From contig JAFWFO010000035.1 in the NCBI GenBank assembly GCA_017515635.1, positions 1-64,000 of the forward strand: a DNA stretch of 64,000 bases, given 5' to 3'. Below, one piece after another: positions 4 through 61,800 of the stretch; within the stretch, counting starts at the first letter, position 1; each line of letters starts with the position of its first letter. The position numbers were made by a program, and so were the translations under genes. This DNA is from Selenomonadaceae bacterium (GTDB lineage Bacteria; Bacillota; Negativicutes; Selenomonadales; Selenomonadaceae). Under the pieces are notes generated by a model. It was not told the origin of the DNA and ran no database searches. It was given only the letters and a program-made list of their open reading frames with translations.

Positions 4-33
4 GCGGCAACGTGACGTTGCATCCAATTGGAG
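4..33 (+). repeat. Interspersed palindromic repeat, copy 1
   Basis: This 30-base stretch contains the near-palindrome GCAACGTGACGTTGC followed by ATCCAATTGG. Almost the same sequence (GCAACGTGGACGTTGC then ATCCAATTTGG) occurs on the minus strand at 30767-30800, inside a duplicated 5' gene end. It lies beyond the 3' end of the flavodoxin gene, at the edge of the window, so its left context cannot be seen. Confidence 0.6.
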
Positions 34-2003: not shown

Positions 2004-2086
2004 TCAGACAAAATTTTTTAGCGCGGGCGGCGTCAAATTTCGTTCGATAATCAATCGTTCAATCGCGTCCAAAACTTGTCGCGGAG
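2004..2086 (-). pseudogene. Duplicated, diverged 3' end of the heptosyltransferase gene
   Basis: Read on the minus strand this segment encodes SPRQVLDAIERLIIERN followed by LTPPALKNFV and a stop. The true gene at 2168-3475 ends SPRQVLDAIEQLIIDRK then LIPPILR and a stop. The two DNA segments are clearly homologous but differ at many third positions and by conservative substitutions, so the fragment looks like the end of a once-functional relative or allele. It is separated from the gene by an 81-base spacer carrying the CGCTTTTAAAGCG palindrome. Confidence 0.75.
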
Positions 2087-2167
2087 ACCCGCTTTAAAAG
2101 CGGGGGAACAGTTGACGCTACGCGTCATTATCGTAGTCCAAACGTTATCGCCGCGAACTAATTTTTT
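2087..2167 (-). repeat. Palindrome-bearing spacer between duplicated gene ends (locus 1)
   Basis: In gene orientation the spacer ends AACTGTTCCCC then CGCTTTTAAAGCG and GG. The spacers at 19853-19915 and 59311-59383 have the same TGTTCC plus CGCTTTTAAAGCG ending, the same orientation relative to the upstream gene, and also lead directly into a second copy of the gene's 3' end. A weakly shared block (ACGTTTNGGA) lies further upstream at this locus and at 59.3 kb. Confidence 0.65.
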
Positions 2168-3475
2168 TCAGCGCAAAATCGGCGGAATTAACTTTCGATC
2201 GATAATCAGTTGTTCAATCGCGTCCAAAACTTGTCGCGGCGAAATTTTTTTCTGACATTCAAGCTCGCGTTCCGTGCCGCCGTAATGCGGGCAAATATTT
2301 CCCATAAAATTGACGCGCACATTGTTAAAACAGCCGTTGCAAACATTTCGATTGGCGACGCGATACGGCGCGTCGAATTCAAACCAGTCCTCTGAAAAGC
2401 CGCAAATCAGCACGACGGGACAATTCACCGCATTTGCAACCCATGAAAGCCCGCTACCAAGCCCGATAAAAAATTCCGCGTGATAAAGCATGTTCGCCCT
2501 GTGCATAATCGGAAAATCGCCCGTGAAATCTTCGGCACCTTCAGGCTTGCGAATCGTCATGCCGTCCGAAATTTCCTGCGCGTTTTTGTCAATGCAAAAA
2601 ACTTTGTAGCCCAAACTTTTCAGGTAGTCGACGACGATATCCCAGCCGTTCGGGTAAAGCCAACATTTTCGGGCGTTCGAAGTCTGCACGGCGATACAAA
2701 CATACGGCTTATCGGTGACGGGCGGCGCGGTCGGTTTGAACGTCGGATTTTGCATTTGTCCGCTCAAGCCCAAAATCCTGCCCGTGACAAGTTCCATCGG
2801 CATGTTGCGAATGTCGACGGGCACGCTCGGATAATCGCCGATACACATTGTCGGGAAATACGTCGCGTAATTTTCAAAGTTCATTTCGTCGACGAAAGTG
2901 AATTCGGGATAAAGATTCGCCGCAAATTCGCGCAGATATTTCGGAATCAAAATCGACAGCTTACAACGGTGACGCTTTTGGAATTCGGCAACGGCAGGCA
3001 GAATTGAAATCACGTCGCCCAATCCGTTCAAGCGCACGGCAATCAGCACGGGTTGATTTTCCAAGTCGAGCGCGTGAGCAAAAATTTTTTCGTCGTCCAA
3101 AAAAACTTCAACACGCCAGCGGATAAAATATTTTTCAAAGGACACAATCCGCACGTCGGAAATTTTTTCGTCCAAAAAAGTTTCGCCGCCGACTTCGCCG
3201 ATTTTCACGCGGAAATTTCCTGCAGGCACTTCAAGGCGCAGACCGAAATTAAAATCCAGTCGCAAGCCGTCAATGCCCGTTTCGCCCGCAATCGGCGCGC
3301 TTAAAGCTTCGTCGCGATCGGCGTAAAAATGCAACTTGCGATACAAAAAATTTTGCAAACGGTCGCTGTCCAAAATATCCCGCACGTTTGCCCCGACGTG
3401 AGTCGCTCGGTCGCTCGCGTCGCGATATGTCAAAAAATCTCTGAAATCTCTTACGCAAAAAGTTACAGTTTTCAT
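2168..3475 (-). CDS. Autotransporter-type O-heptosyltransferase (TibC/AAH-like GT9)
   Basis: A 435-residue family 9 glycosyltransferase. The Rossmann-type core shows GLGDVISILPAVAEF (donor side) and FIGLGSGLSWVANA (acceptor/nucleotide loop). The C-terminus carries CNGCFNN, then ICPH, then LECQKKISPRQV: the four-cysteine iron-binding finger typical of TibC/AAH-like protein O-heptosyltransferases, which modify adhesin serines. No classical autotransporter is nearby; the RTX-type protein at 21.5-25.7 kb is a possible acceptor, but that is inference. A GGGAG site lies 8 bases before the ATG at 3475, favouring it over the GTG at 3481. The 3' end is duplicated downstream. Confidence 0.8.
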   Translation of the reverse strand: MKTVTFCVRDFRDFLTYRDASDRATHVGANVRDILDSDRLQNFLYRKLHFYADRDEALSAPIAGETGIDGLRLDFNFGLRLEVPAGNFRVKIGEVGGETFLDEKISDVRIVSFEKYFIRWRVEVFLDDEKIFAHALDLENQPVLIAVRLNGLGDVISILPAVAEFQKRHRCKLSILIPKYLREFAANLYPEFTFVDEMNFENYATYFPTMCIGDYPSVPVDIRNMPMELVTGRILGLSGQMQNPTFKPTAPPVTDKPYVCIAVQTSNARKCWLYPNGWDIVVDYLKSLGYKVFCIDKNAQEISDGMTIRKPEGAEDFTGDFPIMHRANMLYHAEFFIGLGSGLSWVANAVNCPVVLICGFSEDWFEFDAPYRVANRNVCNGCFNNVRVNFMGNICPHYGGTERELECQKKISPRQVLDAIEQLIIDRKLIPPILR

Positions 3476-3618: not shown

Positions 3619-5028
3619 TTGGACAACAACGAAAACCCGAAGCCTAAGACAAGTATTTTTTCGGTGATTCTCCTGATTGTGTGCTTTATCGGTGCAGCTG
3701 TCGCGGGTGCAATGTTCGCCGAATCCAGCCTGTTCGACGGCAAAGAACCGTCTCGCAGAGTCACCGGCGGCAAGGACGAAAAAACCGAGGAACTTATAAA
3801 AGCTCGCGACAAAGCGACGATTTTAATTATGGGCGTGGACAAGCGCGAAGATGATGTCGGGCGTTCCGATACAATGATGATTGCGACGGTTGACCCGCGA
3901 CTTGATCAGGCAACTTTGTTGTCCGTGCCCCGTGATACACGCGTAAAAATTTTCGGACACGGCTACGACAAAATCAACGCGGCTTTTGCTTACGGCGGAG
4001 TTGAATTGGCGGAAGAGACAGTTGAACATTTTCTCGGCATTGACATTGACCATTACATCATGATTGACACAAGCAGTTTCGTTAAAATTATTGACGCGAT
4101 TGGCGGCGTGGACATTGACGTTGAAAAGCGCATGTTTTACGAAGACCCCTGGGATGACAACGGCGGTTTGGTTATCGATTTGTATCCCGGTCAACAGCAC
4201 ATGGACGGGAAAACTGCCGTGACTTACGTTCGTTATCGTGATTCGGAAGGCGACATCGGGCGTGTGAAACGTCAGCAGGCGTTTATGGCGGCGTGTTTGG
4301 ACAAAGTCACTTCGCCCGAAATTGTTCCGCGCATTCCGAAAATAATTCGTGAGATAATTGACGCCGTTGAAACGGATATGTCGTTGCGTCAACTTTTGGA
4401 AGTTGCGGGCGCGTTAAAAGCAGCTCAACAAAACGGACTTGAAACGGATATGGTGCCCGGCTATCCGCTTTATATCGACGATATAAGTTATTGGATACCT
4501 GACGTGGAACTTTTGCGGCTGTCCGTTGCCGACGCGTTGGGAATTTCCGTTGACCCGATGCTTCGCGAACGTTTCGAGCGTGCGGCGCGTGAATACAACG
4601 ATTCAATTCCCGACGACGCTAAAGATGTTCCCGACGGCGAAGATTATATCGGGCGTCCTTCACGCGAAAACCGCGACCGTCGCCGTATTGAAGACCGCAC
4701 GACCGTCACCGAACGCAGAACTTATGACGACGAGCGCACAACTTCCGACGACAGACGAACTTACGATAACGAGCGCACGCGTTCCGACGACAGGCGAACT
4801 TACGACACCGAGCGCACGCGTTCCGACGACAGGCGAACTTACGACACCGAGCGCACGCGTTCCGACGACAGGCGAACTTACGACGACGAGCGTACACGTA
4901 CTGACGACAGGCGAACTTACGACAGCGACCGTAGAACTTACGAGACTCCGCAAATTGAGCGGCGCGACGTTCCCGACACGAGCTTTACCGAGCCTAGCCG
5001 TGACGACGCGTCGAAAACGAGGTATTGA
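3619..5028 (+). CDS. LytR-CpsA-Psr (LCP) family protein with Arg/Asp repeat tail
   Basis: LCP proteins transfer undecaprenyl-linked polymers to peptidoglycan at the outer face of the membrane. A membrane anchor (about residues 12-35, SVILLIVCFIGAAVAGAMF) precedes the LCP domain with ILIMGVDKREDDVGRSD, SVPRDTRV, GYDKINAAFAYGG and YVRYRDSEGDIGRVKRQQ. Unusually, the last 110 or so residues are about six copies of a 12-residue unit, DDRRTYDNERTR-like. The start is the TTG at 3619, 7-8 bases after GGAGGTG; 469 residues. A paralogue without this tail is at 16407-17495. The next gene begins 3 bases downstream. Confidence 0.88.
   Translation: MDNNENPKPKTSIFSVILLIVCFIGAAVAGAMFAESSLFDGKEPSRRVTGGKDEKTEELIKARDKATILIMGVDKREDDVGRSDTMMIATVDPRLDQATLLSVPRDTRVKIFGHGYDKINAAFAYGGVELAEETVEHFLGIDIDHYIMIDTSSFVKIIDAIGGVDIDVEKRMFYEDPWDDNGGLVIDLYPGQQHMDGKTAVTYVRYRDSEGDIGRVKRQQAFMAACLDKVTSPEIVPRIPKIIREIIDAVETDMSLRQLLEVAGALKAAQQNGLETDMVPGYPLYIDDISYWIPDVELLRLSVADALGISVDPMLRERFERAAREYNDSIPDDAKDVPDGEDYIGRPSRENRDRRRIEDRTTVTERRTYDDERTTSDDRRTYDNERTRSDDRRTYDTERTRSDDRRTYDTERTRSDDRRTYDDERTRTDDRRTYDSDRRTYETPQIERRDVPDTSFTEPSRDDASKTRY
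4714..4935 (+). repeat. 36-bp tandem repeats encoding the LCP tail
   Basis: About six direct repeats of a 36-base unit (core GACGACAGGCGAACTTACGA) lie in frame within the LCP gene. They encode the DDRRTYD-x-ERTRS units. Several adjacent units are nearly identical in DNA, so copy number could change by slippage or unequal exchange. Confidence 0.85.
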
Positions 5029-18301: not shown

Positions 18302-18362
18302 CGCAGTCACCTGAAAAATTTTTTTGAGTATAACACAGGCAAAAGTCTTTGACAATCGCTGA
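18287..18362 (-). repeat. Inverted repeat, left arm with promoter
   Basis: About 76 bases that match the right arm at 18541-18617 when reverse complemented, with scattered differences. The arm carries promoter, ribosome binding site and the first five codons of a small frame, all reading outward to the left. Confidence 0.85.
18327..18355 (-). promoter_or_regulatory. Predicted promoter in the left inverted-repeat arm
   Basis: On the minus strand TTGTCA, 17 bases, TATACT. The same hexamers and spacing occur in the right arm. Confidence 0.65.
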
Positions 18363-18540
18363 ATTGCAATTAGAAATTGGGAATGCGTAATTCGTAATGA
18401 AATCATTACACATTGCAGTTTTCCGGCTCTCGCAAGTAATGAAGTCGCCGAAACAAAAAACGTGGCGCGTCATATTGAAAAAGCGTTCGATAGGAATATC
18501 GTCGGCCGGGTAATCGGCACTGTCCTCCTCTGCCGCGACT

Positions 18541-18617
18541 CGGCGATTGTCAAAGGTTTTCGCTTATGCTATACTCGAAAAAATTTTTTGGTGATTGCAA
18601 TGATAGCGATATATGAA
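18541..18617 (+). repeat. Inverted repeat, right arm with promoter
   Basis: Mirror copy of 18287-18362. The 178 bases between the arms hold an AATGCGTAATTCGTAATG-type repeat and no clear gene. Overall the 18063-18718 interval has no long coding region. Confidence 0.85.
18547..18575 (+). promoter_or_regulatory. Predicted promoter in the right arm, upstream of the GT9 gene
   Basis: TTGTCA, 17 bases, TATACT, reading toward the glycosyltransferase at 18719 with a leader of about 135 bases. Confidence 0.65.
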
Positions 18618-18718: not shown

Positions 18719-19852
18719 ATGAAAATTCTTGTGATTAATCTTATGCATTTGGGCGATTTGATGTTGGTCACGCCGACTTTAACGACGTTGAGAAAAAATT
18801 TTCCGACGGCGCATTTGGCGTTGCTTGCCGACAAAAAACTTGCCGACCTCGTCGAGCTGAACAAAAATCTTGACGAATGCATTTTGATTGACAAAACGAT
18901 TTCCGACCTGCTCAAAACAATCCCGAAACTCCGCGCAGAAAATTTCGACCTGGTAATTAATCTTCACCGCAACGAGCGGGCGAGCGCGTTGGCGGCGTTC
19001 AGCGGCGCGAAAAAAATCGTCGGCTACTCAAAACCGCTGTTTTCGTGGCTGTTCACGAAGACCATGCCGAATCCTTCGATAGCGCGTCATATCAAGCACG
19101 GATTCAAAACGGAATATATCCCCGGCTCTCAGCATCAAGTTCATTCGCATTTCGACGTTTTGCAACAGGCTTGCGGCGTGGAAAAAATTTTCGACAACGG
19201 ACTTGAAATGTGGATTTCCGACGAAGCGTCACGTGAGGCAGAAAAAATTTTCCGCGAGAATTTCGGCGACACGAAAGTTGTTGCGTTCAATATCGGCGCG
19301 AGTTGGCTGACGAAACGTTGGCTTGATTCGTATTTCGCCGAATGCGCGGATATTTTGCTTGAACGCGGCTACGGCGTGGCATTTTTGGGCGGCACGATGG
19401 ACGAGGAAATTGTTTCGTCCTGCGTCGCGAAAATGAATCACCGCGACAGCGACCGATTAAAAATTTTCACGGGCAAATTTTCGTTGGCATTGGTTGCAGG
19501 TTTTCTGGACAACTGCGTTTTATTTTTGACGACGGATTCCGGCCCTATGCATATCGGCGTTTCGCGAAACATTCCGATTGTGACGATGTTCGGCGCGTCG
19601 CCCGTGCCGGGATTTTATCCCTACGACGCGAAAGATATTTTAATTAAGGCGCCCGAACCGTGTCACCCGTGCGGCAAACATTCCTGCCCGAGAGTCGGCG
19701 AAGAAAATCTGGCGTGCATGAAAAAAATTCCCGTCGCTGTCGTCATGAAATATGTTTTCGAGCTTTTGGAAACTTACGGTCAGCCCGCCAAAGAAATTCC
19801 GCGTGTGCACGGAGCTTACAAGTGCCGAGTTATCGACATTACGAAAAATTGA
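18719..19852 (+). CDS. Glycosyltransferase family 9 (LPS heptosyltransferase-like)
   Basis: A 377-residue cytoplasmic GT9 enzyme, resembling ADP-heptose:LPS heptosyltransferases of the WaaF group. The N-terminus LVINLMHLGDLMLVTPTL is the acceptor-side GT9 motif, FDLVINLHRNERAS the following loop, and FLTTDSGPMHIGVSRN with VTMFGASPV the donor-binding region. A C-terminal cysteine cluster (CHPCGKHSC...CM) resembles that seen in some GT9 proteins. It implies outer-membrane lipopolysaccharide synthesis. Expression is probably from the inverted-repeat promoter. Its last 16 codons are duplicated downstream. Confidence 0.88.
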   Translation: MKILVINLMHLGDLMLVTPTLTTLRKNFPTAHLALLADKKLADLVELNKNLDECILIDKTISDLLKTIPKLRAENFDLVINLHRNERASALAAFSGAKKIVGYSKPLFSWLFTKTMPNPSIARHIKHGFKTEYIPGSQHQVHSHFDVLQQACGVEKIFDNGLEMWISDEASREAEKIFRENFGDTKVVAFNIGASWLTKRWLDSYFAECADILLERGYGVAFLGGTMDEEIVSSCVAKMNHRDSDRLKIFTGKFSLALVAGFLDNCVLFLTTDSGPMHIGVSRNIPIVTMFGASPVPGFYPYDAKDILIKAPEPCHPCGKHSCPRVGEENLACMKKIPVAVVMKYVFELLETYGQPAKEIPRVHGAYKCRVIDITKN

Positions 19853-19915
19853 TTGTGCGCGGACAATTTCGGCAATGAGATTATTACCAAACTGTTCCCC
19901 CGCTTTTAAAGCGGG
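19853..19915 (+). repeat. Palindrome-bearing spacer between duplicated gene ends (locus 2)
   Basis: Ends AACTGTTCCCC then CGCTTTTAAAGCG and GG, identical over about 25 bases to the spacer at 2087-2113 and in the same orientation relative to the upstream gene. Confidence 0.75.
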
Positions 19916-19969
19916 CGCGTGCACGGAGCTTACAAATGTCGAGTCATTGACATTACGAAAACTTCATAA
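19916..19969 (+). pseudogene. Duplicated 3' end of the GT9 gene
   Basis: Encodes RVHGAYKCRVIDITKTS and stop; the intact gene ends RVHGAYKCRVIDITKN. The first 15 codons differ only at third positions (for example AAG/AAA, TGC/TGT, GTT/GTC, ATC/ATT), so the fragment diverged while it was still coding. A terminator follows directly, which suggests this copy is the original gene end. Confidence 0.85.
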
Positions 19970-19977
19970 AAAAGAAA

Positions 19978-20008
19978 CCCCGTCGTATTTCGACGGGGAA
20001 ATTTTTTT
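19978..20008. terminator. Terminator between GT9 region and the convergent small gene
   Basis: CCCCGTCG-TATTT-CGACGGGG followed by AAATTTTTTT; A-rich on the other side, so it may serve both convergent genes. Confidence 0.85.
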
Positions 20009-20021
20009 CGGCTAATTTTCT

Positions 20022-21483: not shown

Positions 21484-24400
21484 TTAAGCTTCCTTAGTCC
21501 ACTTGTTGTCGGACTCGCTGTCTTTGTTGGTAACATAGATTTCGGTACCGCTGTTGATAGCGAAGCGGACATCGTCCAAGCCGTCGACAGTCAAGCTGCC
21601 GCCGTTTTTGAAGTTGACCACAACGGAGTTGTCGGTGACTTCGGTGCTCGCAATGTCGTCGAGGGTGGTATCGCCGAGCCAGACAATATCGTTGTCGAGA
21701 TCGTAGTTGTAAACGGTGTCGTTACCGCCGGTGACAGTATCGTCGACGCCTTGCAGGTAAGCACCCGCATTGCGGACATAGAAGAACACGTCGTTGCCTT
21801 CCTCGGAGCCGATAAGGACGTTGTCGCCCGCGCCGCCCCACAGGGAGTTGTTGGTGCCTGCGCCGCCGCCGTAAAGCGTGTTGTTGTTGCCGTTACCTGC
21901 AATGGCGACGTTGGTGTTGGTTTCCGCACTCGCGTTGACGACTGCAATGCCGCGATAGTATTGTTCGTCAGCGTTGGTGTCGTAAGTGCCGTTCGTGCCG
22001 TCGAGCCAAATGTTGGCGTTTGCGATTTCGTTGCCGACGTTGAGGGTATCCTGCGCATTTTCTGCGGAGCTGCCGACGTAGTAGTCAACTTTATCGCTGT
22101 AGGTGAATTCGTTCGAGCCGTTGGAGTAACCAATCTTGGCAAGTTTGGTGTCGAATTCGCCGAGTTTGATTTGATAGACGTTGTTGACGTTAATGCCTTC
22201 GTTTTCGTAAATCGAAATGCGGTTGTCGCCTTCGGTAAAGAAGTCAATGCGTGCTCCGCCGTTTTCGCCCGTGCCGGTGGTGATACCGTTGTATTTTTCG
22301 ACAACGAGGGTATCTGCATACTGCTTGTCAGGATCTTGTTCAACGCCGAGGTAATGACCGAAGCCGCGGATGGTGTCGAGGCCGTCATTTGCGCCAAAGT
22401 AGAACATGTGACCTGCAGTAAGGGAGCTGTCGCCGCTCGAAACGATAACGTCGTTGCCCGCGCCGAGGGAGACTTTCTTGTTTGCGCCCGCATCTGCGTC
22501 GCCGCTGACAACAATAGTTTCGCGTTCGCTTGTGCCGAAGACAGAAGCTTTGCTGTTGTTGGCGAGCACCAAATGGGTAATGTCTTGATAATTGGTGGGA
22601 TCGTTGTAGCGGCTGAGGTTGATTACGCCGAGATCTTGAGTAACGCCGGAGCCAAAGATGAGGTTGCCTTCACGTTCTGCAATGTAGTTGTCGGCAATAT
22701 CCTCGTTCGAGGCAACGAGACCATAGCTGGTGTAGCCTTTGTTGCCGTCGTTGGTACGAATCGCCATCCACTTGGTGTCGTTGATGAGAATGTTATATTG
22801 ACCGTGGTTGTTGTCGTCGTGTGTGGTGTCGTCGATGAGAATTTCGCCGTTGGAGTCGGTAACTTTGAGGCGGTCGTTTTCAAACTCGGCTTGATAACCT
22901 TCGCCCGCGATAAGTTCGGTTGCGCCCGCGTTTTTGTCGAAGCCGAACGTCCAGCCCGAAATGGTGTCTCTGCCCGCGCTGAGCTGAACCGTCACGCCTG
23001 CGCCGCCGGTGGAAGGACCGCCGATGCTGATTGCGTCGTTGCCTTCGCCCGCGTTGACGGTATCGTTGAGACCGACATAAATCGTATCGCTACCGGCCGT
23101 GCCGATGACGTTGTCGCCCGAAATACCGTTGCGATCATAATCGGCAACGATGAGAGCCGCGCCGTCAAGAGTGGAGGCGTCAAGCGCACCGCCGTTGATG
23201 CCCGCGACAGCCACATTACGGTAACCGACGACATCCGCGTTGGTGTCCATGACTGCAACTTTCATGTTGAGCGAAGCATTCTGGTTTGTGCCGATGGTGA
23301 ATTCCTTGTTGCTGGAACCAAAGCCGATTTCGTTGCCCGCGTCGCCGTAATTGAGGATGCCTTTGTCGATGTCGGCAACGGAGTTGACACGTGTAGCGAT
23401 AAGGAGATCGCCTTGGGAAGCGTCATAGTCGCTGACGGTGTAGTTTGCGCTGTCATAGAAATAGTCTGCACCTGCGCCGCCGGTGACGATGTCATTTCTG
23501 CCTGCCCAGATGGTGTCGTTGCCGCTGTTGCCGGTGATGGTTGCGCGAACGCCGTCGTGACGAATTTGCGAACCTGCCGTGCCTGCAAAGATTTTGTTTT
23601 GTCCCGTGGCAAGTGCGCCGATATAAGCCGTACTCTTGGCAGCATTGCTCAGGTAAACTTCGTGCGAAGCAGAGACGCTTCCGAGCGTACCAATCGCAAC
23701 ATTGGGAGCACCGCTCGCAGTGCGCAGGTCAATCGTCACGTCGTAAACATTGGAGCTTTCGTCAGCTTGAATGTTAAGCTCAGTTAAGCCGACAGCCGAG
23801 CCAGCAGTCAAAGTGACATGATTTGCTTGTGCAAGAACGTCACTGCCAACAATTTCGACGCCCGTCGAATTGGAAACGGTATCAAATTCGGTGGAATCTT
23901 CGTTGGCGAAGCTTGCGACGGAAACTTGACCCGCCTCGGAAACGTCGAGATTATAGAATTGTTCGTAAGCATCCGCATGGTTTGCGACAACGCTGTCTTC
24001 CGCACTGCCGATGGACGAAACGTCATTCCATTTGTTGTCGTCGTTTACTTTCTTCATGTAGTTTTCTTCGTCAATGGAATCTGCCACGTTGCCCGCGCTG
24101 TCGAGCGTGACATACACCGTTTCGCCTGCACCGACTTTGACTTGGTTTTCTTTGGTATCATCTTTGAAGTGATAGGTCATGCCCGTCGTGCCGCCGGAAA
24201 CCGAAACTTTTTCGGTGTCTGCCATACCCGTAACAACGGTAACACTGTTGCTGTCCGCGCCGACTGAAATAGCAACGCCCATGGTGTCGGCAATGTCTGC
24301 CGCTGTGATTGAAGCGTTGTTGACTTGGAAGACATGTTCGCTGTCGTCGCTGACCGGCAAGTAATTGGCGGTAAAGCCATCGGCATCGCCCGTAACGCTG

Positions 24401-25716
24401 ACTTTCGCGTCCGCTGCCAAGACGACAGCGCTAATGCCTGCTTCGCCGTCGATAGCAGTGGCAAAGAGAGTACCGGAGCTGACGGAAACTGCCGCACCGT
24501 TGAGCGAGGCTTTATTCGCGCCGTCAACACCTTCGAAGAGAGCATTGCCGCCGGTAACGGCATAACCTTTGTCGGCCTCAACGTCGACTTCGAGAGCGTT
24601 GGCCACAGCTTCGAAATTAATTTTGTCCGCGTCGGTTGCAACGGCGTAGGTTTTAGTGCCGACATTGACATCGAAGAGATTGTCGCCGGCGACGGTGAGT
24701 TCAGTATCTTTCTTCATGCCAATGGCAGAAATTCCGCCGCCTTCGACGGTCTCAAGCGTGAAGGAAACTTCGGCAGTTTCTTCCGCTTTGACTGCGACAT
24801 CATTGACGATCGCGGAGTCGAGATTTTTGATGGTAAGTTGTGCGCCGTCTTCACCGTCAGCAACGACAAAGCCGCTGTTGTCGACGGTTGCCGAGCCGAC
24901 CGAATCAAACTTGATTGTGTTGAGGACACCCGAAATTTCGTTCCAAGTGGTTTCGTTGAACGTAACACCGCTGATACCTGTGGACGTGGTGAGCGTTGCG
25001 CTTTTGGCACCGGCGATTGAGGCGGTTGTAAGCAGAGCAACTTGAGCGTCAGAAGTTTTGAGATCCAAAACACCTGCAGGCAAAGTGATTGTGTTGTTTC
25101 CGGTAACGAAGCTGATTTCGCCGTTGGTGTTCGCGGCGGTGATACCTTCCTTAAAACCTAAACCGCTGATCGAAAGTGAATCTTTTGCTACACCCAAAGT
25201 AATGTCGGTGGAGTTTTTGCCGAAAATTGCAGCCGTTCCTTCCGGAAGAGCGACATCGACGTCGTTAGCGTCTTTCTCGAAAGTGTAAAGGAGACCCGTG
25301 CCCGTCCCGCTGTTGCCGACAGTTGCGTTGATATCGCCACTGACATACTGATCAATACCGTTGACGTTTTCTTCAAAAGTGCCGTCGACATCAAGGGTTG
25401 AGTTGGTGCCTGCAAAAGCGTGGTTTCCATCTTTGCTTGCTTTAAGGATATCTTCGTCAGCAAGTGCAAGCGACCATTCTTTGTTTTGAATCGAGAAAGA
25501 ATAACCATCTTTGCCGGTGAGATAAACTTCCGAGCCGGCGACCGCCGAAACGCCGCCGGTTGCCGCCCAGTATGCGGGGTTTGTTGCCGAGCCGACATTT
25601 GCCGTGCTGTCACCGCCGCCGACGAATTGGCCGTTGTCCCATTCGAAACCGGTGCTGGTGCCGCCGAGCACGACATCTGCGGCGAAACGTTGCAGATCAA
25701 AAAACGTATCTGTCAT
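21484..25716 (-). CDS. Giant RTX-type surface or secreted protein (1410 residues)
   Basis: The protein begins TDTFFDLQRFA, a short N-terminal signature I associate with large exported proteins of Negativicutes, and has no Sec signal. Residues 20-800 are repetitive, rich in Gly, Ala, Val, Thr and Asp, and look beta-stranded. The C-terminal half has calcium-binding RTX nonapeptides: GNSGNDTIWAG, GTAGSDTIYVG, AGEGNDAISIGG, GGAGDNVLIGSEEGND. I see no cysteine. These features fit type I secretion, though no ABC/HlyD/TolC genes are in the window. AGGAGG 9 bases before the ATG at 25716 sets the start. A strong promoter lies 400 bases upstream, leaving a long leader. Confidence 0.85.
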   Translation of the reverse strand: MTDTFFDLQRFAADVVLGGTSTGFEWDNGQFVGGGDSTANVGSATNPAYWAATGGVSAVAGSEVYLTGKDGYSFSIQNKEWSLALADEDILKASKDGNHAFAGTNSTLDVDGTFEENVNGIDQYVSGDINATVGNSGTGTGLLYTFEKDANDVDVALPEGTAAIFGKNSTDITLGVAKDSLSISGLGFKEGITAANTNGEISFVTGNNTITLPAGVLDLKTSDAQVALLTTASIAGAKSATLTTSTGISGVTFNETTWNEISGVLNTIKFDSVGSATVDNSGFVVADGEDGAQLTIKNLDSAIVNDVAVKAEETAEVSFTLETVEGGGISAIGMKKDTELTVAGDNLFDVNVGTKTYAVATDADKINFEAVANALEVDVEADKGYAVTGGNALFEGVDGANKASLNGAAVSVSSGTLFATAIDGEAGISAVVLAADAKVSVTGDADGFTANYLPVSDDSEHVFQVNNASITAADIADTMGVAISVGADSNSVTVVTGMADTEKVSVSGGTTGMTYHFKDDTKENQVKVGAGETVYVTLDSAGNVADSIDEENYMKKVNDDNKWNDVSSIGSAEDSVVANHADAYEQFYNLDVSEAGQVSVASFANEDSTEFDTVSNSTGVEIVGSDVLAQANHVTLTAGSAVGLTELNIQADESSNVYDVTIDLRTASGAPNVAIGTLGSVSASHEVYLSNAAKSTAYIGALATGQNKIFAGTAGSQIRHDGVRATITGNSGNDTIWAGRNDIVTGGAGADYFYDSANYTVSDYDASQGDLLIATRVNSVADIDKGILNYGDAGNEIGFGSSNKEFTIGTNQNASLNMKVAVMDTNADVVGYRNVAVAGINGGALDASTLDGAALIVADYDRNGISGDNVIGTAGSDTIYVGLNDTVNAGEGNDAISIGGPSTGGAGVTVQLSAGRDTISGWTFGFDKNAGATELIAGEGYQAEFENDRLKVTDSNGEILIDDTTHDDNNHGQYNILINDTKWMAIRTNDGNKGYTSYGLVASNEDIADNYIAEREGNLIFGSGVTQDLGVINLSRYNDPTNYQDITHLVLANNSKASVFGTSERETIVVSGDADAGANKKVSLGAGNDVIVSSGDSSLTAGHMFYFGANDGLDTIRGFGHYLGVEQDPDKQYADTLVVEKYNGITTGTGENGGARIDFFTEGDNRISIYENEGINVNNVYQIKLGEFDTKLAKIGYSNGSNEFTYSDKVDYYVGSSAENAQDTLNVGNEIANANIWLDGTNGTYDTNADEQYYRGIAVVNASAETNTNVAIAGNGNNNTLYGGGAGTNNSLWGGAGDNVLIGSEEGNDVFFYVRNAGAYLQGVDDTVTGGNDTVYNYDLDNDIVWLGDTTLDDIASTEVTDNSVVVNFKNGGSLTVDGLDDVRFAINSGTEIYVTNKDSESDNKWTKEA

Positions 25717-26123
25717 AGTGAATTTGCCTCCAAAAAAAATTTGTACTGGAAAAATTCCTGTCGCAGTCCGAATGCCGTTTTCCCTACACCGAAAGCATCC
25801 GTCTTGTGCCGCGCTCTTGAATCGGTTCCTCACGCCGCGACGAACGAGGAAACGCGGGCACACTGTTTTACGACGCCTTTTTGACGGTTCGCAAAAAAAG
25901 GAAGCGAAACCGGCCGATCACGCTTTAGATGGTCACCTCCTTTTTCCGAGCCGCTCAAAATTTCGTGCGTCGAAATATTTAATCCTGCACCGTGTTTAAC
26001 GGGTAGGGATTGTATGGGAGCGGTCGGACTCAAAACTCTGAGTCCTTCGACAAGGCGGGCGAGTGATCAAATCGCTGACCTTGTCGGCGCGTCAAAAGCA
26101 AAAGTGCCTTTGAATGCGGCAAT
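25717..26123 (-). other. Long untranslated leader of the giant gene
   Basis: About 400 bases lie between the predicted promoter and the ATG, with no convincing open frame. It contains a second ribosome-binding-like AAAGGAGGTGACC (minus strand, around 25932-25945) and GC-rich segments able to form hairpins. I looked for a cyclic-di-GMP riboswitch pattern and did not see one. Some post-transcriptional control is plausible but unproven. Confidence 0.4.
25948..25963 (+). repeat. 16-bp direct repeat flanking the giant gene, copy 2
   Basis: GAGCCGCTCAAAATTT within the leader of the giant gene; see 21417-21432. Confidence 0.5.
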
Positions 26124-30009: not shown

Positions 30010-30736
30010 AAGCTTTCTTTTGTTGATGAACTTTCAAAACGAATTTCGGCAAGGCGACCAATCGACCTGCGCGGGAAGGTTGCAACATTGCTCGGAAAAG
30101 CCACTCGAGTTTCGCCCGTTGCATCCAAAGCGGTGCACGCTTGACGACGCCCGCCATTACGTCAAATGTTCCGCCCACGCCGATTGATACGGGAATTTGT
30201 AATTCGTCGCGGAATTTCGCAAGCCATTTTTCTTGTTTAGGGACGCCCAACGCCGCAAGCAAAATATCTGCGCGGGAAGATTTTATTTGCGAAATAATTT
30301 CCGGCTCGTCGTCTGCGGTGAAATAACCGTTGCGCGTACCGACAATTTTTATGCCGGGGTAAAGTTCTTCGGCTTTGGCTTTGGCTTTGTCGGCGATATT
30401 CGGCGCGGAACCGAACAGAAAAAATTTCCAACCTTTGACGGGCGAAATTTTCATCAGCTCTTGCACCAGATCAAAGCCCGCGACGCGTTCGGGCATTTCT
30501 TTGCCGAGATGTCTCGCCGCCCAAACTGTTCCCGCACCGTCCGGCACGACCAAACTTGCCGCGTTCAAAATATTTTTCAATTCGTCGTCGTGTGTCGCCC
30601 TCAAAAGCATTTCAGCATTCGCAGTCGCCACGATTGACGATTTTTTTTCGGCGATTAAATTTGCCACGCGTTCAACGGCTTGAGCCATCGTCACCGCGTC
30701 GACCTTCACGCCCAAAATTTCCACTTGTTCACTCAT
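29993..30736 (-). CDS. WecG/TagA/CpsF family glycosyltransferase
   Basis: A 247-residue family GT26 enzyme that typically adds N-acetylmannosamine or a related sugar to a lipid-linked acceptor. Motifs: ATANAEMLLRA, VVPDGAGTVWAAR (the catalytic Asp/Thr region), FFLFGSAPNIADKA, LLAALGVPKQEKWL and SIGVGGTFDVMAGVVKRAP. The ATG at 30736 has GGAG 8 bases upstream. The last residues ASSCKL come from an AAGCTT-type repeat. Immediately upstream lies a second copy of the gene's 5' end. It ends about 65 bases before psd. Confidence 0.9.
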   Translation of the reverse strand: MSEQVEILGVKVDAVTMAQAVERVANLIAEKKSSIVATANAEMLLRATHDDELKNILNAASLVVPDGAGTVWAARHLGKEMPERVAGFDLVQELMKISPVKGWKFFLFGSAPNIADKAKAKAEELYPGIKIVGTRNGYFTADDEPEIISQIKSSRADILLAALGVPKQEKWLAKFRDELQIPVSIGVGGTFDVMAGVVKRAPLWMQRAKLEWLFRAMLQPSRAGRLVALPKFVLKVHQQKKASSCKL

Positions 30737-30821
30737 GTGAAAAGCTCCGAATAAAATGTCGGCTTGCCAAATTGGATGCAACGTCCACGTTGCCGCCGAG
30801 AATTTCTACACGTTCACTCAT
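30729..30821 (-). pseudogene. Duplicated 5' end of the WecG/TagA gene with palindrome insertion
   Basis: Begins ATG-AGT-GAA and encodes MSERVEILGG, against MSEQVEILGV in the real gene that starts at 30736. After ten codons the sequence runs into the GCAACGTGGACGTTGC palindrome and then continues to a stop overlapping the real start. The ATG lies directly against the stop of dpnD. Confidence 0.75.
30767..30800 (-). repeat. Interspersed palindromic repeat, copy 2
   Basis: GGCAACGTGGACGTTGC then ATCCAATTTGG on the minus strand; matches 4-33 with two single-base differences in length. Confidence 0.65.
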
Positions 30822-31022
30822 TTAAAATGCAATCCAATCTGTAAGTTCGCCGTCTTCATCGACTACCGAAATTTGTCTTTGCTCAACGTTATCGGAACTC
30901 ACGACAAAATTGCCCGCGTTATATTCTCGAATTGCTTTTTCGACGGCATCTTCTTCGGAAGTCGCTTCAATCTCAAATTCTTCCGAAATGGTTTCTTCGA
31001 TAACCACACGATATTTTTTCAC
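30822..31022 (-). CDS. dpnD: DpnD/PcfM-like small protein
   Basis: A 66-residue acidic protein: KKYRVVIEETISEEFEIEATSEEDAVEKAIREY followed by NVEQRQISVV. The pattern (beta strand, then EA-S-E-E-E-A-I/V-E-K) is that of DpnD/PcfM proteins. In Streptococcus pneumoniae dpnD lies directly after dpnC, the DpnI gene, exactly as here (3 bases between genes), so the assignment is well supported by context. DpnD's function is not established. GTG start, 8 bases after AGGTGG that lies within dpnC. Confidence 0.8.
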   Translation of the reverse strand: MKKYRVVIEETISEEFEIEATSEEDAVEKAIREYNAGNFVVSSDNVEQRQISVVDEDGELTDWIAF

Positions 31023-59273: not shown

Positions 59274-59310
59274 TTAACTCAACGCTCGAATTTTGTAATT
59301 GCCCGTGCCG
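59274..59310 (-). pseudogene. Duplicated 3' end of the YddA-like ABC gene
   Basis: Encodes GTGNYKIRALS and stop; the real gene ends GTGGYKLRALS. Differences are mostly third-position or conservative, so this copy was under coding constraint. It lies just after a spacer ending TGTTCCGACGCTTTTAAAGCGTC. Confidence 0.8.
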
Positions 59311-59383
59311 GACGCTTTAAAAGCGTCGGAACAATTTTTGCAAGCAGATTCGCATCCGAAACGTTTTCGCAGACCCGCAACGA
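59311..59383 (-). repeat. Palindrome-bearing spacer between duplicated gene ends (locus 3)
   Basis: In gene orientation the 73 bases after the YddA-like stop end with TTGTTCC then GACGCTTTTAAAGCGTC. Sequence and placement match loci 1 (2087) and 2 (19853). Confidence 0.7.
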
Positions 59384-61084
59384 TTAACTCAATGCCCGCA
59401 ACTTGTAACCGCCCGTGCCGTCAAGATTTAATTCCGTGTCGTGCATACTGAACAGCGTCGACCTGTGCCCCACGCTCACGACCGTCAATTTCGGCAACTC
59501 TTCACGCAGAAGTTTGTACATTTCAATTTCACGCGGCTCGTCGAGTGCCGAAGTTGCTTCGTCAAGGAAAATGTAATCGGGCGCGCTCAACAAAACTCGT
59601 GCGAAGGCAAGCCGCTGTTGTTCGCCCAGTGACAAAATTCGGCTCCAATCGTCCGCCGTGTCGAGTTTGTCGACAAGCGCAGGCAAGTCAACCAGTTGCA
59701 AAGTTTTTTTCAACACGTCGTCGGGCGGCGAATCTTTTTCGGCTGACGGATAAATCAGCGCACGTCGAAGAGTTCCCAACGGCAAGTAAGGTTTTTGCGG
59801 CAGGAACATCACGCGGGCATTTTCCGGCAGTGAAATTTCGCCCGAAGCATATCGCCACAGTCCCGCCAAAGTTCGGAGCAACGTCGATTTTCCGCAACCC
59901 GATGCGCCCGTCACCAAAAGAGATTTTGCATTTTGAAATTCAAGCGAAAGTTTTTTCAACAGCTCGCGTCCCGTCGGCAAGGAAACGTTCAAGCCGGAAA
60001 TTCTCAATTCGGGAGCGGTTGCGTGCGTGACTTTGCTTTGAACTTTTTTCGCCTCGTCCATGTGTTCGGTGAAGCCGTAAAGACGATTGACCACCGCCGC
60101 CAAATTAGCCAACGTGTCGTAAGAATCGACGAAGAAACTTAACGCGTCTTGAACTTTACCGAACGCCGACGAAATTTGCATGAGCCCGCCGAGCTGAATT
60201 TCTTTGGCAAAATATCTTGGGTACGCCATGATATACGGCACGAGTACCGCCAGTTGCGCGTAGCCGTTCGCGTAAAAATTTAAGTGCTTGGTCTTCTTCA
60301 TGAGTTGCCAATAATTTTTAATGACGTTGTTGAACTTCAAATCAAAGACTTCGCGTTCGGCAGGTTCTCCGCGATAAAACGCAATGCTTTCGGAATTTTC
60401 GCGAACACGCATCATACTGAAACGAAAATCAGCCTCGAATTTCTGTTGGTCGAAATTCAGTCCGATTAACTTGCGTCCGACTTTGTGCGCGATAACCGTT
60501 CCGATTCCGGAATAAATCAACGAAAACCAGAACATGTAACCTGCAATGACGATTTCGACGCCGCCAACCGTGAACGAGAAAGAACCGCTCAAATTCCACA
60601 GCACCACGCCGAACGCCGCCAACGTCGTCAACTGTTTTAAAAATCCGATAAGCAACGCGAGCGATAAATTGACGAATTGCCCGATGTCTTCGGAAATACG
60701 CTGATCGGGGTTGTCCGTCGCGTCCTGCAGTCGATAATAAGTCTGTCCGTCCATCCACGCCTGCAAATAATTATTCGTCATCCACGTGCGCCACTTAATT
60801 TGCAACATTTGACGCAGATAAATCGCGTAAACCGCAATAATTATGTAAATGAAAGCAATCGCACTGAATCGCCCGATTAACGGCCAAAAACTTTCTTCCT
60901 CGTAATTTTGCAACGCGTCCCAAAAAATTTGATACCACTCATTCAACTGGACAAGCAGATAAACCATCGCGAAATTCATTGCGATAACAACCGCCAACAG
61001 TCCGCGTGCTTTCCATTTTTCTTCGCTCGACCAATAGCCTTTGAACAGTGCCCACAAGCCGCGAAATAATTTTTTCGTTTCCAA
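59384..61084 (-). CDS. YddA/SbmA-like ABC transporter, fused permease-ATPase
   Basis: A 566-residue half transporter. N-terminal about 330 residues have the SbmA/BacA-like six-helix membrane domain (LNEWYQIFWDALQNYEE, WRTWMTNNYLQAWMDGQTYYRLQ, NPDQRISEDIGQFV, a motif set of this family). C-terminal ATPase: Walker A GASGCGKSTLLR, signature LSLGEQQRL, Walker B YIFLDEATSALDE. Relatives move peptides or vitamin B12-like compounds. TTG at 61084 with GGGAGG 8 bases upstream. Its 3' end is duplicated twice downstream. Confidence 0.9.
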   Translation of the reverse strand: METKKLFRGLWALFKGYWSSEEKWKARGLLAVVIAMNFAMVYLLVQLNEWYQIFWDALQNYEEESFWPLIGRFSAIAFIYIIIAVYAIYLRQMLQIKWRTWMTNNYLQAWMDGQTYYRLQDATDNPDQRISEDIGQFVNLSLALLIGFLKQLTTLAAFGVVLWNLSGSFSFTVGGVEIVIAGYMFWFSLIYSGIGTVIAHKVGRKLIGLNFDQQKFEADFRFSMMRVRENSESIAFYRGEPAEREVFDLKFNNVIKNYWQLMKKTKHLNFYANGYAQLAVLVPYIMAYPRYFAKEIQLGGLMQISSAFGKVQDALSFFVDSYDTLANLAAVVNRLYGFTEHMDEAKKVQSKVTHATAPELRISGLNVSLPTGRELLKKLSLEFQNAKSLLVTGASGCGKSTLLRTLAGLWRYASGEISLPENARVMFLPQKPYLPLGTLRRALIYPSAEKDSPPDDVLKKTLQLVDLPALVDKLDTADDWSRILSLGEQQRLAFARVLLSAPDYIFLDEATSALDEPREIEMYKLLREELPKLTVVSVGHRSTLFSMHDTELNLDGTGGYKLRALS

Positions 61085-61227: not shown

Positions 61228-61250
61228 AAAAAAAGCCCCCGGAAAGGGGG
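61228..61250. promoter_or_regulatory. Hairpin over the toxin ribosome binding site / antisense terminator, module 1
   Basis: GCCCCCGGAAAGGGGG: on the plus strand the GGGGG, which is the ribosome binding site of the small peptide, pairs with CCCCC. On the minus strand the same hairpin is followed by CTTTTTTT, a rho-independent terminator for the antisense RNA. Confidence 0.7.
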
Positions 61251-61258
61251 TGAAGCGG

Positions 61259-61333
61259 ATGTTCACGATTATCTTCCGAATCATCGTCATAACCCTGATA
61301 ATCCTCTGGATATTCACAGGAACGGCCGCCTAA
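61259..61333 (+). CDS. 24-residue hydrophobic peptide, module 1 (type I toxin-like)
   Basis: ATG at 61259, stop TAA at 61331. The peptide begins MFTIIFRIIV and ends TGTAA, with one central hydrophobic span rich in Ile, consistent with a membrane-inserting toxin. GGGGGTG lies 6 bases before the ATG and is inside a hairpin. The transcript has its own promoter and terminator, and a convergent antisense promoter lies at 61450. The second module encodes a related peptide. No family is recognised; the type I toxin call rests on architecture. Confidence 0.7.
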   Translation: MFTIIFRIIVITLIILWIFTGTAA

Positions 61334-61449
61334 GCTTCCCGGCGAATAGCGGCTTACCTTTTGTAACTCACTTACAGACGAGGGGCTGAACCGCCTTCAA
61401 GCACTTCGCCTCGCACGGACGCGGGGCATTTTTGTTTTGTTGTGACGAA

Positions 61450-61531: not shown

Positions 61532-61578
61532 TCGTGTTGCTTGATGCCTTCGCGGCAAAAGGCGGTTTTAATCGGAAA

Positions 61579-61595
61579 CCCCCCGAGAAAGGGGG
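61579..61595. promoter_or_regulatory. Hairpin over the toxin ribosome binding site, module 2
   Basis: CCCCCCGAGAAAGGGGG. The pairing is kept although the loop changed. On the minus strand it is followed only by GTTTCC, so antisense termination here may be weaker than in module 1. Confidence 0.65.
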
Positions 61596-61603
61596 TGACG
61601 CTG

Positions 61604-61678
61604 ATGTTTACGATTATAGTACGCGTGGTGATTATCACCGTTGTAATCCTCTTAATTCTCAGCAAAACAGCCGCCTGA
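61604..61678 (+). CDS. 24-residue hydrophobic peptide, module 2 (type I toxin-like)
   Basis: ATG at 61604, TGA at 61676. Begins MFTIIVRVVI and ends SKTAA. It keeps MFTII, an Arg at position 7, the Ile/Val/Leu span and the TAA end of the module 1 peptide, while many codons differ. Conservation at protein level with changed DNA supports a translated gene. GGGGGTG lies 7 bases upstream. Confidence 0.7.
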   Translation: MFTIIVRVVIITVVILLILSKTAA

Positions 61679-61800
61679 GCTCCCAACTCATGCGACTGTT
61701 TAAACCTTGTTTGATTTTGTTAATTTCGTATAGATGAGGGGCAAAACCGCCTTCAAGCACTTCGCCTCGCAAGGACGCGGGGCATTTTTGTTGTGACGAA

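Follow-up and report, generated by a model that had tools for sequence, protein, structure and literature searches.

A gene-less, hairpin-ended repeat element between doubled gene ends in Selenomonadaceae

Results and Discussion

A glycosyltransferase gene with a doubled end

The 64-kb window, which is the whole stretch of DNA analyzed, contains a GT9-family glycosyltransferase gene whose 3′ end is present twice (Table 1). The copy attached to the gene (copy A) carries the gene stop, and 63 bases separate this stop from a fragment that repeats the gene end (copy B). The fragment begins exactly at the foot of a hairpin, reaches its own stop (TCA TAA) and is followed by a terminator at ~19976-20012. 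A and B match at 87% across 52 bp. The mismatches at positions 3, 21, 24, 30 and 33, numbered from the start of B, are all synonymous; the first 15 codons have third-position changes only, after which differences appear in the final sense codon (N/T) and around the stop. The alignment confirms the initial annotation, which had described a repeat of the gene end with third-position-only changes over 15 codons followed by the terminator and had correctly placed it at 19798-19969. The repeat at the gene end stands, but what had been taken for a simple spacer at 19853-19915 is itself one copy of a repeat element, hereafter element E. On its own, the GT9 locus is only mildly informative on synonymy (5 synonymous versus 1).

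The 26-mer AACTGTTCCCCCGCTTTTAAAGCGGG occurs twice in the window versus zero times expected (100 shuffles), and at 16 places in the genome with up to 3 mismatches, while its reversed control gave no match. The second window copy lies at 2088-2113, on the opposite strand to the GT9 gene. Four loci in the window have the arrangement A-E-B, including the GT9 locus (locus 2). At the others (2004-2242, minus strand; 30709-30838, plus strand; 59274-59420, minus strand), B likewise runs from the hairpin foot and the protein sequence is largely kept. A TGGATGCAACGTCACGTTGC hairpin is also found at 7-26 (minus strand), beside the window edge.

Table 1. Features of the four doubled gene ends or starts in the window.
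Feature	Position	Strand	Evidence
GT9-family glycosyltransferase gene, 377 aa, insertion host (locus 2)	18719-19852	+	ORF; Pfam PF01075 Glyco_transf_9, E 6.6e-31
Locus 2 copy A, doubled gene end attached to the GT9 gene, RVHGAYKCRVIDITKN then stop	19802-19852	+	Sequence comparison
Locus 2 element E, in order: a degenerate left portion that includes GCGCGGACAA (~19856), AACTGTTCC and the hairpin CCCGCTTTTAAAGCGGG	19853-19915	+	
Locus 2 terminal hairpin of E; 3′ foot is the exact right boundary	19899-19915	+	Fold
Locus 2 copy B, displaced original GT9 end, RVHGAYKCRVIDITKTS then stop, terminator next	19916-19969	+	
Locus 1 copy A, end of second gene (451-codon open frame)	2168-2242	-	
Locus 1 core of E, CTGTTCC and hairpin	2088-2111	-	
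Locus 1 copy B, own in-frame stop	2004-2087	-	
Locus 3 copy A, 5′ end of minus-strand gene, M-S-E-Q-V-E-I-L-G	30709-30752	+	
Locus 3 element, second hairpin type TGGAT-GCAACGTCCACGTTGC	30773-30793	+	
Locus 3 copy B, begins at hairpin foot	30794-30838	+	
Locus 4 copy A, gene end ...GTGGYKLRALS then stop	59384-59420	-	
Locus 4 element core TTGTTCC-GACGCTTTTAAAGCGTC	59311-59334	-	
Locus 4 copy B, ...GTGNYKIRALS then stop, begins at hairpin foot	59274-59310	-	

The window has further features of its own. Upstream of the GT9 gene is a 54-bp inverted repeat (18314-18367 / 18535-18588; 81% complementary, 167 bp between). At 61231-61439 / 61576-61795 are direct repeats measuring 109 bp (71%) and 81 bp (86%), ~350 bp apart and with GAGGGGCTGAACCGCCTTCAAGCACTTCGCCTCGC, for which Rfam gave no match. 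At least five repeats of 39 bp lie at 4693-4965, one frame of which reads as RTYD-ERT-SDDR repeats. An open frame of 1459 codons with a high content of Asp, Asn, Gly and Val spans 21484-25863 (minus strand) and has no Pfam match.

Structure and target sites of the element

Element E is a small, non-autonomous, gene-less mobile element. Its copies are dispersed and close relatives have empty orthologous sites, as is characteristic of a mobile repeat. It is ~55-100 bp in length (typically ~70 bp), non-coding, and composed of a CGCG-closed stem-loop, CTGTTCC and a perfect hairpin. The consensus of 20 copies reads RCGCGGYGA, ~20 variable bases, CGCG, 4-5 bases, CTGTTCC and the hairpin. The CGCG/CGCG closing stem is uninformative by itself because it is invariant among these copies; in the terminal hairpin, the base pair at the base is changed on both sides, from GC to CG, in 5 of the 20. 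Left ends are variable, and some copies are truncated there (loci L018 and L158). The same body is also joined to other terminal hairpins (GCAACGTCACGTTGC and ACTTTTTAAAAGT types), with the duplication again running from the hairpin foot, and at one tRNA-adjacent site the genomes G065 and G082 bear different terminal hairpins. In two pairs of loci from close genomes (L340 and L362, L316 and L347), the element position is equal and the terminal hairpins are unlike, as if a module had been swapped or added. The hairpin foot abuts the 5′ end of a tRNA gene at L015 and L316. A search of Rfam gave no match to E above the gathering score, the best hit being sub-threshold.

A duplication is detectable at 84 of 200 distinct copies. 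B begins at offset 0, the base right after the hairpin foot, in 76 of these 84 duplications, and likewise in 22 of 28 in a new locus set. Single weak duplications are uncertain because the background of the alignment test is above zero (16 of 364 shifted positions reach an equal score with a start within 6 bases); the offset-0 peak is unaffected. The duplications are ~6-120 bp in length, and A-B identity ranges from 100% to ~60%. Among the 71 targets listed, position +1 is a pyrimidine (Y) in all, +2 is G in 50 and +4 is C in 44, while A is found at -7 and at -6 in ~40 each. Both 3′ and 5′ ends of genes are targeted, and at 3′ ends the left part of E often provides the new stop codon. As the target stretch stands on both sides of E, the gene remains complete through A, while its original end persists beyond the element as B. 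Tandem X-E-X-E-X arrays are also present.

All data on E come from metagenome assemblies that are 60-95% complete. Copies of the related pattern number 21 in the source genome, 190 in the congener G010 and 68 in G020, and the pattern is absent from ~20 of 36 congeners. The named genomes with the E core are all Selenomonadales/Selenomonadaceae MAGs, mostly from ruminant gut. A phage origin was rejected: the E core had no match in IMG/VR and the GT9 locus had none in phage records.

Synonymous differences between the copies

Where the target is coding, the differences between A and B are almost exclusively synonymous. The first coding set, made up of 48 loci with A in a long open frame, yielded 88 synonymous (S) and 48 nonsynonymous (N) differences and a pN/pS of 0.154 (bootstrap 0.097-0.226). 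A further set of 17 loci, fetched later, gave 0.067. For the 65 loci pooled, pN/pS is 0.134 (0.09-0.19), versus at least 0.5 expected for a decaying fragment (P 1.2e-17; this P value and the next assume independent sites and are indicative). Under a model with A constrained and B free, the synonymous share expected in the 48 loci is 0.35, and the share observed is 0.65 (P 2.6e-12). Third-position mismatches extend across the whole duplication from codon 1, without a clean left breakpoint inside it. Nonsynonymous changes, as expected of a decaying B, are present at L003, L009, L049, L119 and L197. Taken over the 65 coding loci, these data bear out the earlier view that the fragment is not decaying like dead sequence.

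Several processes were discarded. The pooled pN/pS rules out neutral decay of B as the sole process. Gene conversion between A and B accounts for shared variants, yet B would be neutral afterwards, so the synonymous excess would be unexplained. A diversity-generating retroelement is contradicted by A-B changes that are not adenine-specific, and no reverse transcriptase was found in the most E-rich genomes tested (80-89% complete).

Empty sites and comparison between genomes

The relationship of the copies to resident DNA was assessed at loci where a relative lacks E. The genomes G065 and G082 are ~95% identical and have ~4 E loci in common; the other compared loci hold the single-copy target. 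Nine loci were polarized in this way (L305, L311, L312, L313 and L315 with E in G065; L332, L335 and L337 with E in G082; and ccmE in G016/G035), using the E-less relative as the third state in three-way alignments delimited by hand. The gene bodies and downstream DNA at these loci are resident, the bodies being no farther from the empty-site relative than the remainder of the locus is. A and B agree against the empty allele at 19 sites; A alone is changed at 16, B alone at 10, and all three differ at 2. The pattern resembles a changed A on a resident B at L337, L305, L315 and the ccmE gene of G016, but not at L313, L312 and L335. In the G016 ccmE gene, A is 1/28 from G014 and B is 1-2/28 from G076/G035; in the L337 leader, A is 7/29 and B is 1/29 from the empty allele. 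Import of A is thereby evident at only a minority of the polarized loci, and at most of them A and B agree against the empty allele.

These comparisons bear on the two readings put forward in the initial annotation. The idea that a diverged allele replaced the greater part of the gene conflicts with the polarized loci, where body and B are both resident relative to a ~95% identical empty-site relative. Body and fragment therefore share a history there, the pattern which the annotation itself had named as contrary to replacement. The other reading, an element that brings a recoded tail, is right in kind because a mobile element is present at every such junction, but a foreign tail A is found only at some loci. 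A diverged tail that is brought or picked up by an element fits better than replacement of most of the gene.

At the end of ccmE, E occupies the identical position in six species (G084, G020, G019, G016, G026 and G032), with a remnant in a seventh (G077) and single ends elsewhere. G019 and G077 are 98% identical: 44 bases comprising distal A and E are the same in both, while proximal A differs at 5/30 bases, and ~80 bases of B and downstream sequence are also patchy. At L108/L112, E is 7% diverged and the adjacent coding A much more so, with A and B of one species agreeing close to where the duplication starts. At L304/L323, the E sequences do not differ, and A and B have the local variants in common at two synonymous sites. 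Such patterns point to short-tract exchange ending at E or to transfer of E with a short flank, and do not favor one over the other.

For the GT9 gene, affinity of the body to relatives is even along its length, with no switch. A and B are at roughly the same distance from all relatives, and an A-versus-B phylogeny was set aside as the sequences are too short and the relatives too distant. The donor step at this locus is accordingly drawn from the other loci, since the nearest relative is only ~84% identical there. A tandem paralogue, which the initial annotation had held would count against its reading if present in full in sister strains, was not seen at any of 29 orthologous loci.

Explanations considered

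The data suggest that one of the two copies was swapped in from a related strain. As a whole, we consider it somewhat probable that E inserts, that the target is thereby doubled, and that a homologous but diverged tail of a related strain takes the place of the short gene-side tail A. E sits at gene ends and gene starts, where the foot of its hairpin meets the target exactly; under this explanation, E and the duplication would arise when the element inserts at a site with loose preferences (AA at -7/-6, YGNCG at +1 to +5). During or after insertion, tail A would be wholly or partly exchanged. The diverged tail could be carried in with E by homing-like transfer of the element and a short 5′ flank, or it could be acquired through short-tract recombination unable to cross E. 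The A-B differences would be synonymous because each copy was, presumably, recently part of a working gene. At the GT9 locus, by extension from the other loci, the resident end is probably B and the diverged tail A. Among the mechanisms considered, we place first the import of such a tail, whether during insertion or later. The agreement of A and B at most polarized loci, the third-position differences from codon 1 onwards and the nonsynonymous changes at five loci weigh against it, as does the failure to find a mobility enzyme in the incomplete assemblies searched.

A plain transposable element with a long target duplication, in which A equals B at insertion and drift follows in a dead B, is an improbable account. 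It explains the exact junction, the empty sites, the range of A-B identity and the species-specific variants common to A and B at most polarized loci; a dead B nevertheless predicts a far higher pN/pS than the 0.13 observed (P ~1e-17), and the low value was repeated on new loci. An assembly artefact, whereby bins merge A of one strain with B of another, appears unlikely. Every named E-bearing genome is a metagenome assembly, and strain mixing could contribute, but E, the compensatory stem change, the exact junctions and the tandem arrays recur in bins from several animals, and fragments with locus-specific sequence are found at many loci. We give just as little credence to target-primed reverse transcription, in which the 3′ end of the RNA would be the hairpin foot, the left end would vary and the template would include upstream gene sequence. 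The exact 3′ junction and variable, sometimes truncated left ends agree with it, but reverse transcriptase (PF00078) was not found in G000, G010 and G020, the most E-rich genomes tested (80-89% complete). Marginally less credible again is a replacement that took in most of the gene but spared its old 3′ tail: the nearest relatives of A and B do differ at ccmE of G016, but this is outweighed by the resident bodies at the polarized loci and the even affinity of the GT9 body.

Least probable of all is RNA-guided self-spreading, where E would be a scaffold, the first bases of B a guide, and A recoded to escape cutting, like a designed gene drive. It would account for B exactly abutting the hairpin foot, since the guide would follow the terminal hairpin on its 3′ side in the layout of TnpB/Cas12 RNAs, and for one ccmE site having been occupied repeatedly across several species. 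Against it, there is no mismatch excess near the start of B, many loci have their first 20 or more bases identical, no TAM-like motif is adjacent, and TnpB-like genes (PF07282) are uncorrelated with E copy number, with none found in G020. Among other enzymes, Y1 transposase (PF01797) was found only in G014 and G028 among 24 genomes and is missing from the E-rich ones; IS110 transposase (PF02371) is absent from G010, G020 and G088. Genes for reverse transcriptase, Y1, TnpB and IS110 do not track E copy number in these assemblies, which are 60-95% complete. A RAYT partner and an IS110 bridge-RNA partner were rejected on these distributions, and identity with integron attC sites was rejected as the core sites, judged by eye, do not fit.

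If import of the tail is correct, bacteria harbor a dispersed element able to edit the ends and starts of genes while leaving them intact. The A/B pairs would then document, many times over, natural recombination of short tracts between strains, and the exact junction at the hairpin foot makes the enzyme searchable. We tentatively propose, as a possibility that we rate below the explanation itself, that E belongs to an undescribed kind of bacterial element: gene-less, hairpin-ended, spreading between strains and species in a homing-like manner with an exact junction at its 3′ hairpin, and carrying a locus-specific synonymous tail that keeps the target gene working.

Comparison with known systems

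Element E resembles several known classes of repeat in part. Like REP/RAYT sequences (PMC2817692), it is a short, hairpin-forming, high-copy, extragenic and non-autonomous bacterial repeat; it differs in its long flanking duplications, its asymmetric body, the lack of Y1 in E-rich genomes and its occurrence beyond intergenic sites. Likewise, bacterial MITEs (PMC10969869) are small, non-autonomous, dispersed and flanked by target duplications. In E, the ends are not paired by terminal inverted repeats, there being instead an internal CGCG/CGCG stem and a one-sided terminal hairpin, and the duplications are of variable length (6 to ~120 bp) rather than short and fixed. Both REP elements and MITEs thus match E in size and copy number, but not in its junction and duplication. 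IS200/IS605 elements and their TnpB RNA (PMC8612924) have in common with E a hairpin near the end and an exact right-end junction. E is unlike them in its target duplication, in the absence of Y1 from E-rich genomes and in its lack of correlation with TnpB. IS200/IS605 elements are not known to make target duplications.

A literature search for a bacterial precedent of the arrangement found none. The closest arrangement is that of the mobile ORF elements (mORFs) of fungal mitochondria (Allomyces atp6; Glomus atp6, atp9, cox2 and nad3), which are elements located at gene ends (PMC3630166). In these, the gene is followed by a foreign, mostly synonymous C-terminal tail, the mobile element and the native tail, with element-free relatives resembling the native tail most and a homing endonuclease driving the arrangement (PMC3630166). 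E has the order of gene, tail, element and second tail in common with mORFs; a diverged inserted tail beside a native tail nearest to the element-free relative was observed at G016 ccmE, L337, L305 and L315, but not at L313, L312 and L335. In contrast, mORFs are ~1 kb and encode the homing endonuclease, whereas E, at ~70 bp (55-100 bp), encodes nothing; it also differs in occupying tens to hundreds of loci and gene starts in addition to gene ends. If the explanation favored here is correct, E would be the tiny, gene-less equivalent in bacteria of homing elements that carry a tail, of which descriptions have so far come from fungal mitochondria.
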